Assembly: GCF_003003775.1 (NCBI RefSeq)
Contig: NZ_PVWJ01000004.1
Coordinates: 1 to 64,000, forward strand
Reading direction: 5' to 3'
Length of the DNA: 64,000 nt
Source of the DNA: Merismopedia glauca CCAP 1448/3
GTDB lineage: Bacteria > Cyanobacteriota > Cyanobacteriia > Cyanobacteriales > CCAP-1448
Positions 5,246 to 50,101 of the stretch are shown in pieces (position 1 is the stretch's first letter; the number at the start of each line of letters is the position of its first letter). The notes beneath the pieces were generated by a model. The model did not search any database and was not told the DNA's origin. It saw only the letters and a program-made list of their open reading frames with translations. The position numbers and the translations under genes were made by a program.

Positions 5246-5812
5246 ATGTCTTCCTCTGCAATGCAACGCATTTGTTGGACAACTGCCGATCTAGACTTGT
5301 TCGCAGATGAGAGCAAGCGCTACGAAATTATTGACGGAGAGTTATTTGTGACTAGAGCGCCTCATTTACGCCATCAAGGAGTGGCAGATGCCATTTGCGC
5401 GCAGTTACGTTCTTGGTCGAGACAATCTAACGTAGGAAATGCTTTTACAGGAATTGGGCTAATTTTTTCCGAAACTGATAATGTCATCGCCGATGTAATT
5501 TGGATTAGTCTAGAACGCCTCAACCTATTGCTAGATGAATCAGGACATTTAACGGGTGCGCCAGAGTTGGTTGTTGAAGTCTTATCTACTGCTCCTAAAG
5601 ACATTAAAAGAGATCGAGAACTAAAGCTCAAACTCTATTCAGTACAAGGGGTTCAGGAGTACTGGATTGCAGATCGCCAGCAACAAGCTATAGAAATTTA
5701 TCGCCGAGAGGATGGAGTTTTAAAGCGCGCCATCACTTTATTGAAAACAGATGAATTAACCAGTCCATTATTATCTGGCTTTCGTTGTGAGGTAGAACCA
5801 TTATTTGAGTAA
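5246..5812 (+). CDS. Uma2-family protein (DUF820), PD-(D/E)xK nuclease fold
   Basis: Uma2/DUF820 proteins are very numerous in cyanobacteria and have a restriction-endonuclease-like fold, but their biological role is unproven. The 188 residues show the usual order: a YEIIDGEL block near residue 30, VIADVIWIS, then PELVVEVLS followed by a Lys-rich stretch and LYSVQGVQEYWIAD. The Asp, Glu and Lys of the putative active site therefore appear intact. It stands alone, with a second family member at 63055-63630. It is probably functional, since no frame damage is visible. Confidence 0.85.
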   Translation: MSSSAMQRICWTTADLDLFADESKRYEIIDGELFVTRAPHLRHQGVADAICAQLRSWSRQSNVGNAFTGIGLIFSETDNVIADVIWISLERLNLLLDESGHLTGAPELVVEVLSTAPKDIKRDRELKLKLYSVQGVQEYWIADRQQQAIEIYRREDGVLKRAITLLKTDELTSPLLSGFRCEVEPLFE

Positions 5813-5855: not shown

Positions 5856-6040
5856 CAGCAATATCAAAAAACGGCGTTGCTGAATCAAGGTATGAACTAG
5901 TGCATGAAGTCAGAAGTCAGAAGTCAGAAGTCAGAAGTCAGAAGTCAAAAGTCAAAATAGTGAGAGATAACGGCGAAAGAAAACCCAATCAACAATCAAC
6001 AATCAACAATTCATACTTCAAATCAGCAATATCAAAAAAC
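5856..6040. repeat. MITE-like element with two heptamer arrays, flanked by a 17-bp direct repeat
   Basis: The segment starts with TTGCTGAATCAAGGTATGAA at about 5877 and ends with its imperfect inverse TTCATACTTCAAATCAGCAA, so it has about 20-bp terminal inverted repeats. Inside are an array of GTCAGAA units (5906-5956) and an array of CAATCAA units (5986-6010), separated by a core reading ATAGTGAGAGATA...GCGAAAGAAAACC. The 17-mer CAGCAATATCAAAAAAC occurs directly at 5856-5872 and 6024-6040. A second copy without the right end lies at 22873-23024. Confidence 0.75.
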
Positions 6041-6880
6041 CTATACTGATAAATCTCGCCGCTTGAGAATTACCATGTTTCTACCAACTACAGGAGTACG
6101 AGCAACTAAAGTACCCTGGGGATCTGTCAGTTGTAATTTCTGAAAATTAAACTTTTCCGAGCGATTCAGCATTTGCTCGGTAATTTGATCTTGCTCTTCG
6201 TTAGAAAGATCGTACCAACCACTTCCTACTTTTACTTCTAGGCGACTCTTGGGAAAATTAACTTCCAAAGATTGAACTAAGTCGTTACTATACTCCTTCG
6301 TAATTTCTCCCACTTGGTCTTGAATCGAGGCGATGAGGGACTGTTCTGGAGTTAACTGTAAAGGAGGGGGAGTAGGAACCACAACTTTGACAGATCTTGG
6401 TTGGTTAGGTGCTTTAAGTTCAACTGGTGGTTGTAATTGCGGTGAAGGTACTTCAGCTACTTGTTTTGGCGAATCACCAGAAGAGATCGCAACCCCAATC
6501 CAAAATACTAGAATAGCGACACCAGCAATAATCCCTGTCAAACCCCAATCCGATAGCTTTTGACTGGTAGATGGCGGTAACAGAGAGCGGATTTTCTGCA
6601 ATACTACGTTCCAGAAACGTTGAATTTGTTCCAAACTAGGCAAAAACTTGTCTACCACAGCAGTAGACGGAGATTTGCTAGAGCCTTGTCCCCCAGATGG
6701 TGGAGAAACTTTTGGAGGGTTAGGATCTGCACCTAGTTTTCTAATTGTACTTTGCAAAAAGCTATCTAAACCCTTTAAGGTTTTGACTGTTTGCTGCTTC
6801 AAAGCTGGTTGGAAGCGATTCCAATTTTCTTGCAAAGTTTGCATGGATTTTGACTTTGGCGGTTGTTGGCTGTCTGGCAT
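6041..6880 (-). CDS. Single-pass membrane protein, cyanobacterial conserved, unknown function
   Basis: The protein has a hydrophilic N-terminal half rich in Pro, Ser and Lys and one membrane segment (GIIAGVAILVFWIGVAI, roughly residues 115-131). A Pro-rich spacer follows, then a C-terminal globular domain containing SRLEVKVGSGWYDLSNEEQD. I place the start at the ATG at 6880, preceded by a GGGGGGAAAG ribosome-binding site, rather than 14 codons upstream. The membrane anchor with a folded C-terminal domain on the far side suggests an envelope or thylakoid role, but this is inference. The stop lies right beside the repeat element at 5856-6040. Confidence 0.65.
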   Translation of the reverse strand: MPDSQQPPKSKSMQTLQENWNRFQPALKQQTVKTLKGLDSFLQSTIRKLGADPNPPKVSPPSGGQGSSKSPSTAVVDKFLPSLEQIQRFWNVVLQKIRSLLPPSTSQKLSDWGLTGIIAGVAILVFWIGVAISSGDSPKQVAEVPSPQLQPPVELKAPNQPRSVKVVVPTPPPLQLTPEQSLIASIQDQVGEITKEYSNDLVQSLEVNFPKSRLEVKVGSGWYDLSNEEQDQITEQMLNRSEKFNFQKLQLTDPQGTLVARTPVVGRNMVILKRRDLSV

Positions 6881-7219
6881 CTTCTTTCCCCCCAATGATT
6901 TACGGCACCCAACAGAAATCAATTTAACACTTCTAATAGCGATCGCCCAAATCTTACTTACTTCTACAGATTTATCTTGATTAGCTCCCTGGATTAATTG
7001 AGAAATATATTGCCAATATTGCCAATAAAAGTCATTATTTTGCGTTAAAGTCTCTAATCAACTAGATGGACTAGGGACTATATCGAAATATTAGCCAAGA
7101 CTATTTCTTCCAGTGGTCGAAACGGCATAAACTATTAGACAGTATTAATTTTTGCTTAAAAGTTTTAATTTAAAATTGTAAAGTAAAATTAAGATACCTA
7201 TACTGGTTGCTATCATCTA
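6881..7219. other. Intergenic region between divergent genes
   Basis: This is a 339-base AT-rich stretch between a minus-strand and a plus-strand gene, so it should hold both promoters. It contains one HIP1-like site near 6940 and a short direct repeat TATTGCCAATATTGCCAATA near 7013. I see no gene or RNA structure in it. Confidence 0.4.
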
Positions 7220-13075: not shown

Positions 13076-14506
13076 ATGAAATTATTGAAAGATAGATTAA
13101 CATTAGCCAGACATTTAGCTGCACCGATTTTAGCTGCTGGTATGACTGTTGGGACGCTGCTACCAACACCCGCTTCGGCTCAACAAACTCCTTGGAATTT
13201 TGACCCATCGAACCTCACAAATGTCAATGGAACGTTGTACCTTAGTGGAAATTCTCGACCTTTTAGACCTCCTGGTGAGGAGTTATGGAAAAGTAATGGC
13301 ACGACTACTGGTACTACCCTCATCCAAGACATATTTCCTGGAAGTGCTAGTTCTGGGTTGTCTAACTTCATCAATGTTAATGGGACGTTATACTTTATTG
13401 CCGATAATGGCACTAATGGTTACGAGCTATGGAAGAGTAACGGCACGGCAGCCGGCACTGTCATGGTTAAAGACATAGTTCCTGGAAGTGGCAGTTCTTA
13501 CCCATATTCCCTCACCAACGTTAATGGGACGTTATACTTTATTGCCAATAATGGCACTAATGGTTACGAGCTATGGAAGAGTAACGGCACGGCAGCCGGC
13601 ACTGTCATAGTCAAAGACACAGTTCCTGGAAGTGGTAGTTCTGACCCCTCTAACCTTACCAACATCAATGGGACATTATACTTTACCACCTCTAATGGCA
13701 CTAATGGTTACGAGCTATGGAAGAGTAACGGCACGGCAGCCGGCACTGTCATGGTTAAAGACATAGTTCCTGGAAGTGGCAGTTCTTACCCATATTCCCT
13801 CACCAACGTCAATGGGACGTTATACTTTATTGCCAATAATGGCACTAATGGTTACGAGCTATGGAAGAGTAACGGCACGGCAGCCAGCACTGTCATGGTT
13901 AAAGACATAGTTCCTGGAAGTGGCAGTTCTGACTCATATTCCCTCACCAACGTTAATGGGACGCTATACTTTACCACCAATAATGGTACTCAGGGTTACG
14001 AGCTATGGAAGAGTAACGGCACGGTAGCCGGCACTACCATAGTCGTAGATCTCTTGCCTGGACTTGATAGTTCTAACCCGTATTCCCTCACCAATGTCAA
14101 TGGGACATTGTACTTTGTCGCTAATAATGGCAGTAATGGTTATGAACTGTGGAAAAGTAACGGCACGGAGGCTAGCACTGTCTTCATCAGAGATATTAAC
14201 CCTGGACTTGATAGTTCTAACCCGTATTCCCTCACCAATATCAATGGGACATTGTACTTTGCTGCTGATAATGGCAGTAATGGTTACGAACTGTGGAAAA
14301 GTAACGGCAGCTATGCCAGCACGGTTCTAGTCAAAGATATTCGGATTGGAAGTGAGAGTTCTTCCCTACGCGAACTCACCAATGTGAATGGAACATTGTA
14401 TCTTGTAGCTGATGATGGCTCTTTTGACCCCAATAATGCTACTTACGGGTCTAGATTGTGGAAGAGTAATGGCACGGTGGCTGGTACGGTCAAGGTTTAT
14501 CCTTAA
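13076..14506 (+). CDS. Secreted ELWxxDGT-type repeat protein
   Basis: A signal peptide (basic start, hydrophobic core, cleavage near PASA/QQ at about residue 36) is followed by nine tandem repeats. The central copies are 48 residues long, with consensus SLTNVNGTLYF...NNGTNGYELWKSNGT..GTV..KDI.PG..SS. This is the ELWxxDGTxxGT repeat class, predicted to form beta-propeller-like or beta-rich extracellular structures. Here the D of the consensus is replaced by N throughout. Blocks of more than 100 bases are almost identical between the second and fourth full repeats, pointing to recent duplication or gene conversion. The leader has no strong ribosome-binding site. Surface adhesion or matrix binding is only a guess. 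Confidence 0.85.
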   Translation: MKLLKDRLTLARHLAAPILAAGMTVGTLLPTPASAQQTPWNFDPSNLTNVNGTLYLSGNSRPFRPPGEELWKSNGTTTGTTLIQDIFPGSASSGLSNFINVNGTLYFIADNGTNGYELWKSNGTAAGTVMVKDIVPGSGSSYPYSLTNVNGTLYFIANNGTNGYELWKSNGTAAGTVIVKDTVPGSGSSDPSNLTNINGTLYFTTSNGTNGYELWKSNGTAAGTVMVKDIVPGSGSSYPYSLTNVNGTLYFIANNGTNGYELWKSNGTAASTVMVKDIVPGSGSSDSYSLTNVNGTLYFTTNNGTQGYELWKSNGTVAGTTIVVDLLPGLDSSNPYSLTNVNGTLYFVANNGSNGYELWKSNGTEASTVFIRDINPGLDSSNPYSLTNINGTLYFAADNGSNGYELWKSNGSYASTVLVKDIRIGSESSSLRELTNVNGTLYLVADDGSFDPNNATYGSRLWKSNGTVAGTVKVYP

Positions 14507-21140: not shown

Positions 21141-22292
21141 ATGATGAGTAAGACAAAGTTACTACTAGGACTTTTACTAAGTTCAGTTATAGCCCATGGG
21201 TTGATAGCCTCTTCTGGATTGGCTTTCGACAATCGCTTAGTTAAAGAATCAGCTAGTTATAGCGATCGGCAAACGTTATTATCTCAAAACAATAGGGAAG
21301 AACCTGGAGAAATAAACGATTTATTGCGATCTGCTGCTGATAAATTTGCCAAAAAAGACTATAAAAGTGCAATAGAGGACTATAATCGGGTTTTAGAGTT
21401 AGATCCCGAAAATTCCCTAGCCTATTGGGGGAGAGGAGTTATAGAAGACTCTCTAGATCGAGACAAAGAAGCTTTAGCAGATTACAACCAGGCAATTAAA
21501 CTCAATCCGCAATATCCTGAAGCCTATAACACCAGAGGGATGCTATATGTTCAAGCGAGAAACTATCAACAAGCCTTAGCCGATTTCGATCGCGCGATTC
21601 GTCTCAACCCTAAATATGCCTTAGCCTACCTGAATCGGGGTGAAACTTATCGCAGTCTGAAGCAACCTCAAAAAGCCCTGTCAGACTATAATAAAGCGTT
21701 AAAAATTAAACCAGATGAGGCGGATATTTACGTTAGCCGTGCCAATTTGCGGGATGATTTAGGCAAATACCCAGAAGCGATCGCCGATCTAGATAAGGCA
21801 ATTCGTCTCAAGCCTAGATATGCCAAAGCCTATCGATTGCGGGGTTGGATTTATGCCAACCGCTTACAGCAATATCAAAAAGGACTTAGCGATTTCGGTC
21901 GTACTATTACTATATCGCCAGATTATGCCCTAGCATACGTCAATCGGGGCAATGTCTATCGGCAACTCAAGGACTTTAAAAAAGCTATAGCTGATTACGA
22001 CAAAGCCATTCAGTTAGATCGAAGCGATGCTGATGCTTATTTTTATCGAGGAATTACTCGCGATGCGATGGCAAATTATCGAGGTGCGATCGCCGATTAT
22101 AACCAAGTTTTGCGTCTAGAACCTCAGTCAGCAGATGCTTACTACAACAGAGGATTGAGTCGCGAATCCCTCAAAGACAAACCTAAAGCTTTAGCTGATT
22201 TTCGCCAAGCGGCTAATTTATACAAGCAAGCTGGAGAAACTCAATATTATCAAGATGCTTTAGCTAAGATTAGAGAATTTGAGAAAAAATGA
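21141..22292 (+). CDS. Secreted/periplasmic TPR repeat protein
   Basis: A signal peptide (KTKLLLGLLLSSVIAHGLIA, residues 4-23) precedes about nine tetratricopeptide repeats from residue 55 to the end. The repeats have the recurring pattern A.AYYNRG......Y..AL.DYN.AI.LNP. They form a superhelical protein-binding surface, and no catalytic domain is attached. Export suggests a role in periplasmic or thylakoid-lumen assembly, which is inference. The stop overlaps the start of the next gene as ATGA, so the two are probably translated together. Confidence 0.85.
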   Translation: MMSKTKLLLGLLLSSVIAHGLIASSGLAFDNRLVKESASYSDRQTLLSQNNREEPGEINDLLRSAADKFAKKDYKSAIEDYNRVLELDPENSLAYWGRGVIEDSLDRDKEALADYNQAIKLNPQYPEAYNTRGMLYVQARNYQQALADFDRAIRLNPKYALAYLNRGETYRSLKQPQKALSDYNKALKIKPDEADIYVSRANLRDDLGKYPEAIADLDKAIRLKPRYAKAYRLRGWIYANRLQQYQKGLSDFGRTITISPDYALAYVNRGNVYRQLKDFKKAIADYDKAIQLDRSDADAYFYRGITRDAMANYRGAIADYNQVLRLEPQSADAYYNRGLSRESLKDKPKALADFRQAANLYKQAGETQYYQDALAKIREFEKK

Positions 22293-22900
22293 TCTTGTGG
22301 CTGATTAACAGCATGATTTTAACCGATCGCTTTGCCTCCGCTTTAGTTTATGCCAACCAACTCCATAAAACCCAAATCAGAAAAGGGACAAATGTGCCTT
22401 ATATCAGCCATTTACTCAGTGTCACGGCTTTGGTATTAGAAGATGGAGGAGATGAAGATCAGGCGATCGCAGCCCTTCTCCATGATGCTATAGAAGATCA
22501 AGGGGGTGAAGCAACCCGCCAAGAAATCTGGAGTAAATTTGGGCAGAAAGTTGCTGCTATTGTGGAAGGCTGTACGGATGCAGATACTATCCCTAAACCA
22601 CCTTGGCGAGAACGTAAGGAAAAGTATATCGAACATTTTCGTCACGCACCTCCAGAAGTGCGTCGGGTAGCCTTAGCCGATAAACTGCACAATGCCCGTT
22701 CCATTTTATCGGATTGGTATCGGCTAGGAGATGAGATCTGGAATCGATTTACAGGGAAAAAAGAGGGAAGTCTTTGGTACTATCGTTCTTTAGTAGAAGC
22801 ATCCAAAGCAGCAGGTGGTTTCTGTTATTTAACTGAAGAATTAGATCGAGTTGTCAGTCAATTGGAACAGTTGGCGTTGCTGAATCAAGGTATGAACTAG
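22289..22900 (+). CDS. HD-domain phosphohydrolase, short RelA/SpoT-like
   Basis: The 203-residue protein has the HD metal site: His in YISHLLSV, HD in ALLHDAIED and Asp in ADKLHNARSIL. It also has the KYIEHFRHAPPEVRRVALADKLH-type helix, as in single-domain (p)ppGpp hydrolase-like proteins. No synthetase or regulatory domain is attached. It is coupled to the TPR gene by an ATGA overlap; a later ATG (22313) is an alternative start. Its last codons (LLNQGMN and the TAG) are encoded by the start of a dispersed repeat element, so the natural C-terminus may have been replaced. Confidence 0.82.
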   Translation: MILWLINSMILTDRFASALVYANQLHKTQIRKGTNVPYISHLLSVTALVLEDGGDEDQAIAALLHDAIEDQGGEATRQEIWSKFGQKVAAIVEGCTDADTIPKPPWRERKEKYIEHFRHAPPEVRRVALADKLHNARSILSDWYRLGDEIWNRFTGKKEGSLWYYRSLVEASKAAGGFCYLTEELDRVVSQLEQLALLNQGMN

Positions 22901-23024
22901 TGCATGAAGTCAGAACTCAGAAGTCAAAATAGTGAGAGATCGGGGCGAAAGAAAACCCAATCAACAATCAACAATCAACAATCAACAATCAACAATCAAC
23001 AATCAACAATCAACAATCAACAAT
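22873..23024. repeat. Second copy of the heptamer-array element
   Basis: From GGCGTTGCTGAATCAAGGTA the sequence matches the element at 5.9 kb almost base for base. The match includes TGAACTAGTGCATGAAGTCA and the core ATAGTGAGAGAT..., then GCGAAAGAAAACCCAATCAA. The GTCAGAA array is short here (about three units, 22906-22930) while the CAATCAA array is long (about nine units, 22957-23024). The right inverted end is missing. Confidence 0.75.
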
Positions 23025-39948: not shown

Positions 39949-39977
39949 TCAGAAGTCAGAAGTCAGAAGTCAGAAGT
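39949..39977. repeat. Heptamer array (GTCAGAA)
   Basis: About four units of the same heptamer as at 5906-5956 and 45503-45535. It begins 11 bases after a stop codon. Confidence 0.75.
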
Positions 39978-49697: not shown

Positions 49698-50101
49698 CAG
49701 TTCCTATTCACAAAAACTAGTCTGAACTGGCTATTGGAGGTGTATAAATTTAATCTTCACAGTAGCAGATGGGGATAGTTCATCCAGTCTATCTTAAGTC
49801 CCAATACCTTTCTTTCTACAGGCAGTACTCACCAGGGCAATCGCATCTAATTCGAGGATAAAGCAGAGATGAGATATTAACCCAAGTTGCTAGTGATAAA
49901 TTGGATGTACTCTTGGGGGATTGGGGGACACGGAGACACGGAGACACGGAGACACAAAGAGGAAAATTTAATCAACAATCAACAATCAACAATCAACCAA
50001 GACGTTCATAACTCGGTAAAGTAGCTTAAGATTATTTAAAGAATCATAATTTGTCTCAAAGCGATCGGCTCGTCAAGACAGAAAACTTAGGAGGATAATC
50101 T
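49698..50101. other. Intergenic region with two tandem arrays
   Basis: About 400 bases lie between divergent genes, with no coding frame. They contain an octamer array ACACGGAG (about three and a half units, 49927-49956) and a heptamer array AATCAAC (about four units, 49971-49999). The aldolase promoter must lie in the last 100 bases; its ribosome-binding site is AGGAGGATAATCT. Confidence 0.6.

Follow-up and report, generated by a model that had tools for sequence, protein, structure and literature searches.

A dispersed, putatively IS1-derived MITE that carries heptamer arrays in the cyanobacterium Merismopedia glauca

The window analyzed here comprises the first 64,000 nucleotides of contig NZ_PVWJ01000004.1 (forward strand) from the Merismopedia glauca CCAP 1448/3 assembly GCF_003003775.1. 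Between the convergent ORFs 5246-5812 and 6041-6922 lies a repeat (copy 1, 5873-6032) that is one member of a dispersed family of 104-174 bp elements; a second copy lies some way downstream (Table 1). A sequence-only reading of this DNA had described a composite of two different heptamer arrays around a conserved core, enclosed by imperfect 20-bp inverted ends and present twice in the same order. Both arrays and the core were found in both copies where that reading had placed them. The inverted ends of copy 1 are real, but the left one measures 24 bp and the right one is imperfect. Copy 2 resembles copy 1 in its left end, arrays and core but is missing the right inverted end, its CAATCAA array passing directly into unrelated DNA. 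An HD-domain-like ORF (22289-22900) runs in frame into the left end of copy 2, from which it takes its final residues (ALLNQGMN) and its stop. The terminal pattern had three matches in the window, compared with none in 100 shuffles. Elsewhere in the window, positions 13368-14419 hold a 144-bp tandem repeat of 6.5-7.3 units, perhaps within a repeat protein gene.

Table 1. Coordinates of the element copies in the window and of examples of a second dispersed repeat (TSD, target site duplication)
Feature	Position	Strand	Remark
Copy 1, left 8-bp TSD, CAAAAAAC	5865..5872	+	Direct reading; TSD is 8 bp family-wide
Copy 1, left terminal inverted repeat, GGCGTTGCTGAATCAAGGTATGAA	5873..5896	+	Same 24 bp end the IS1-family element L093 (other cyanobacterium)
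Copy 1, GTCAGAA heptamer array, 7 units (GAAGTCA x7.0)	5906..5954	+	
Copy 1, conserved core, AATAGTGAGAGATAACGGCGAAAGAAAACC type	5955..5985	+	
Copy 1, CAATCAA heptamer array, 3.6 units	5986..6010	+	
Copy 1, right terminal inverted repeat	6010..6032	+	Last bases altered (CAGCAATAT replaces CAGCAATGCC)
Copy 1, right 8-bp TSD, CAAAAAAC	6033..6040	+	Direct reading
Copy 2, left terminal inverted repeat	22873..22896	+	In frame with ORF 22289-22900
Copy 2, imperfect GTCAGAA units, about 3	22906..22929	+	
Copy 2, conserved core	22930..22957	+	
Copy 2, CAATCAA array, 9.6 units	22958..23024	+	Element stops here, without right inverted repeat
TATAGCA...TGCTATA repeat, examples	L165:776-903; L174 near 18000; L183 near 4720; L333-L351		

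In the genome as a whole, a draft assembly of 5.2 Mb in 254 contigs, the element consensus matches about 40 places by BLAST, and the terminal pattern occurs at 137 sites versus 0 for a reversed-pattern control. From fetched loci (L numbers), we assembled 47 copies with both ends, all within the length range given above and without a transposase. They terminate in imperfect inverted repeats of 24 bp (GGCGTTGCTGAATCAAGGTATGAA ... TTCATACTTCAAATCAGCAATGCC) that vary little among the 47 copies. In 29/47, 8 bp of flank are perfectly repeated in direct orientation, with a sequence that differs by site and a length that is never greater; nine more copies have a duplication that matches at 7/8 positions (one mismatch). 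When flank partners were shuffled, a match of at least 7/8 arose in about 0.6% of cases. Exact 8-bp duplications that are different at each site and abut fixed ends are a signature of transposition. The family could instead be an old repeat cluster or a duplicated intergenic segment whose boundaries coincide by chance, and some copies, window copy 2 among them, do miss one end. However, the site-specific duplications refute this possibility, and the family's common ends recur in IS1 elements throughout the phylum, which leaves it with practically no probability. Thus, the suggestion that this is a non-autonomous mobile element was borne out by fixed boundaries, TSDs, many sites and a transposase-bearing relative with shared ends (see below); the genome search and copy alignment that had been advised to look for common boundaries returned the same ends and 8-bp TSDs in the 47 two-ended copies. 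TSD mismatches, at 3% of positions in 38 copies, suggest that many of the insertions are not recent.

The exact 17-bp direct repeat that had been noticed at the edges of copy 1 (CAGCAATATCAAAAAAC, 5856-5872 and 6024-6040) is present but is not general to the family. It is made up of the 8-bp TSD and nine further bases peculiar to this copy: CAGCAATAT, which precedes the duplication CAAAAAAC, reads the same on either side of the element, whose right end is without its normal GCC. A target duplication of 17 bp was dropped, the family rule being 8 bp. Conversion over a short stretch, with the left flank as donor, is a candidate origin that would explain the extra nine bases.

The two-ended copies are of two types. 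In type A (15/47), 1-7 GTCAGAA units are present, and in type B (32/47) GGTTGACACCCCAA... stands in their place; CAATCAA units (2-10) precede the right end in nearly all copies. Type A copies have the commonest type B core (AATAGTGAGAGAT...GGCGAAAGAAAACC), while type B also includes a more diverged group (AAGAGTGAGAG...), which suggests that type A probably arose from within type B. At L188:11892-11960, a MITE copy has array sequence (...AATCAACAATGCC) in place of its right end. The array unit differs from the usual end, AATCAGCAATGCC, at a single base, so array and end may recombine.

None of the 30 copies with enough flank lies inside an ORF of at least 100 aa, and when the flanks of copies were joined, just two long frames were restored, neither of which makes a convincing case for an interrupted gene. 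Intergenic placement in 30/30 tested copies, together with the long hairpin predicted for a type B copy (-36.6 kcal/mol), would suit a function for the host, such as that of a transcription terminator or an intergenic RNA hairpin, tuned by the arrays. We consider such a role very unlikely: the hairpin is a consequence of the inverted ends, the flanking ORFs occur in all four relative orientations, and an Rfam search of the window gave no match.

Copy L057 is inserted between CTCTACTAGTAAATTA and AATGTATCACAGCTTA of a sequence that is itself dispersed. Uninterrupted versions of this host sequence, with a single ..AAATTA, occur at L159:7205 and L174:8491 and represent related, not exact, empty sites. 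The joined flanks of three copies were also compared with 10 relatives; matches ended at the coding parts and none spanned the junction, intergenic DNA being unalignable at genus distance.

Ends of the same kind enclose IS1-family elements in other cyanobacteria. On a Microcystis plasmid, an annotated IS1-family transposase lies directly inside them and, with its two frames joined at an A-rich run, the expected place of IS1-type frameshifting, matches DDE_Tnp_IS1 (PF03400, E 2.5e-26). A Geminocystis plasmid carries an IS1-family element of 895 bp with similar ends and an 8-bp duplication, and a Nostoc plasmid an IS1-family copy of 915 bp with the same kind of ends. Closest are a 753-bp IS1-family element of a relative (L093), one end of which is identical to the MITE end over 24 bp, and L071/L088, where an end identical over 22 bp adjoins an IS1 transposase; the ends at L084-L086 are similar. 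The M. glauca genome itself contains a decayed IS1 (L111) with the left end and a broken InsA. The full-length transposase element with shared ends that the sequence-only reading had advised looking for does exist in other cyanobacteria; the draft M. glauca assembly yielded only the decayed L111. An intact IS1 transposase was sought with PF03400, which had no match in the genome, a draft of 254 contigs in which a multi-copy parent may have collapsed; multi-copy IS often break assemblies. The ends matching those of cyanobacterial IS1-family elements, and the decayed IS1 in the genome, argue that the element is an IS1-derived, non-autonomous MITE. With no intact transposase identified, the family has probably fallen idle or depends on incoming IS1 copies.

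Scanning species genomes for these ends gave over 112 stretches. At 80 loci fetched from other genomes, nearly all of them cyanobacteria, there were about 40 short elements with matching ends and 8-bp duplications, in Okeania, Tolypothrix, Nostoc, Calothrix, Chamaesiphon, Tychonema, Dolichospermum and others. Heptamers in these similar MITEs of other genera amounted to only 2.6-2.7 units, of other sequence, in L212 and L250. A single end-pattern match in a Bacteroidetes-labelled MAG (L213) had no paired end and was ignored. The core pattern had no match in GTDB species genomes outside the M. glauca genome, and the right end plus CAATCAA array, with three mismatches allowed, was found in 1 of 386 genomes of the phylum, this one only. 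As far as these pattern searches reach, the end type is phylum-wide and the CAATCAA-bearing version is seen in the M. glauca genome only.

How far does the MITE account for the heptamer arrays? In a 0.84-Mb sample of the genome, we counted 97 perfect heptamer arrays of at least three units, the commonest being AACAATC (28) and AAGTCAG (25). CAATCAA arrays lay within 160 bp of a MITE end in 16 of 28 cases and elsewhere in 12, compared with 3 (near an end) and 22 (elsewhere) of the 25 GTCAGAA arrays; the MITE thus explains about half of the CAATCAA class and little of the GTCAGAA class. The earlier proposal that the element spreads the arrays therefore holds in part: arrays travel inside it and the CAATCAA class is often near its ends, but few GTCAGAA arrays are, and most copies are without GTCAGAA. 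A stronger version would make the MITE the main vehicle for both arrays, with solo arrays as remnants of decayed copies. The 16 CAATCAA arrays near ends speak for it, as do further arrays with the core but no end (L165:10913, L188:11892). It is nonetheless unlikely, given (i) the 3/25 count for GTCAGAA, (ii) the window arrays at 39949, 45503, 49970, 57119 and 61950, which have no adjoining MITE sequence, (iii) other heptamers that are common without any MITE (AAGAAGG, 14 arrays) and (iv) the relatives G001 and G019, which have many GTCAGAA matches and no element. A recurrent composite of GACACGGA-like units, AAATTT and a CAATCAA array was also seen at window 49927-49997, L162:11969 and L193:8002.

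The two window copies do have the opposite unit numbers that had been reported, but this reflects independent variation and no trend: in type A copies, the unit numbers of the two arrays are uncorrelated (Spearman 0.20, p 0.46, n=16). In 14 pairs of copies, the sequences outside the arrays are no more than two edits apart yet the unit counts are unequal, which suggests that the arrays change faster than the rest of the element, whether before or after insertion.

GTAG-tagged palindromes are nested in GTCAGAA arrays. The heptamer stands on both sides of palindrome GGGCGCAACGCGTTGCGCCC at 6/8 sites and of palindrome AGACGTAGCAnTGCTACGTCT at 6/15, compared with 0.06% of random positions for either. 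In MITE copies L012 and L036, one and the same palindrome occupies the same array position while the TSDs differ, which indicates that array and element moved together. A second family of dispersed repeats, TATAGCA...TGCTATA (about 91-198 bp, in dozens of places), is unrelated to the MITE; it also carries a GTCAGAA array (2-5 units), often with the same palindrome block, and probably has TA target sites. The block GTCAG-TCGTAG-palindrome-GTAC-AGAAGTCAG occurs in the MITE, in this second family and in solo arrays (L166:17065, L165:800, L174:18006, L184, L185), and the array + GTAG-tagged palindrome + array arrangement is near-identical over about 55 bp across both families and some solo arrays. 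The genome has five Y1-type transposase matches (PF01797). We tentatively suggest that GTCAGAA arrays could link unrelated mobile repeats by giving them a stretch of sequence in common. If so, recombination or repeated insertion at heptamers would shift inserts between non-homologous elements, with the arrays as landing pads and exchange points.

The occurrence of GTCAGAA arrays in both the IS1-type MITE and the unrelated TATAGCA...TGCTATA repeat also bears on which partner is active. The heptamer arrays might originate or spread by a route of their own (slippage, template switching or recombination) and enter any intergenic repeats, MITEs included. GTCAGAA and CAATCAA arrays adjoin in the same order outside any MITE, without its ends, at L178:12813-12885 and L184:7159-7235, which speaks for this reading. 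However, a CAATCAA array beside the right end in nearly all copies points to a progenitor array and passive spread, and we regard active arrays as possible though doubtful. This reading is compatible with the explanation we prefer and differs from it on where the arrays originate.

Our preferred explanation, which we consider very probable, is that an IS1-derived MITE was moved by transposase acting in trans and copied host heptamer arrays along with it. An IS1-family transposase supplied in trans would recognize the 24-bp ends, and insertion would produce the 8-bp target duplication to which the anatomy of the copies attests. The progenitor of the lineage would have had a CAATCAA array beside its right end, and type A would later have gained a GTCAGAA array between left end and core, in that presumed order. 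Both arrays would have been drawn from the host's own heptamer pool and copied with the element, and their length may have been altered by slippage or unequal recombination.

These observations bear on why cyanobacteria accumulate heptamer arrays: some have a clear vehicle and others clearly none. The dozens of near-identical MITE copies are a ready-made set in which to measure array growth and loss. In addition, the recurrence of IS1-type ends and 8-bp duplications across many cyanobacterial genera marks out a short element that is widespread and goes unmarked in the gene annotation of the examined records.

Cyanobacterial STRR sequences are arrays of 7-bp units in head-to-tail order. The M. 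glauca arrays resemble them in being intergenic, in having 7-bp units, several different ones in one genome, and in occupying several loci, but differ in that part of them lie inside mobile elements with defined ends. The Nezha MITE of Anabaena/Nostoc, reportedly the subject of Zhou et al. 2008 (doi 10.1016/j.bbrc.2007.11.038), is said to have 24-bp ends; on that basis, and comparing by description only, it may fall within one broad group with the M. glauca MITE. We are aware of no heptamer arrays reported in Nezha. PMC3049150 describes Nezha as a cyanobacterial MITE with proposed mobilization by an ISNpu3-like IS with shared ends, and PMC3733652 also cites it; the present element is likewise a cyanobacterial MITE that has its ends in common with an IS.

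BrickBuilt of Porphyromonas gingivalis is likewise an intergenic MITE with an internal tandem array of variable unit number (PMC4596501). Its 19 copies have IS5-type ends and irregular TSDs, and their array is of a single 23-bp repeat (PMC4596501). The M. glauca MITE has IS1-type ends, TSDs of a regular 8 bp and two different 7-bp arrays, whose units are common outside the element as well; having neither IS5-type ends nor 23-bp units, it falls outside the BrickBuilt definition. GTAG-tagged REP palindromes (PMC3733652) recall the GTAG-ended palindromes inside several arrays, but in M. glauca they form short repeats of their own within the array and are distinct from the element itself. Finally, the IS1-family IS of Microcystis, Nostoc and Geminocystis plasmids share terminal repeats and a short TSD (8 bp in Geminocystis) with the MITE; at about 750-915 bp, cyanobacterial IS1-family elements differ from it in size and in their transposase gene.
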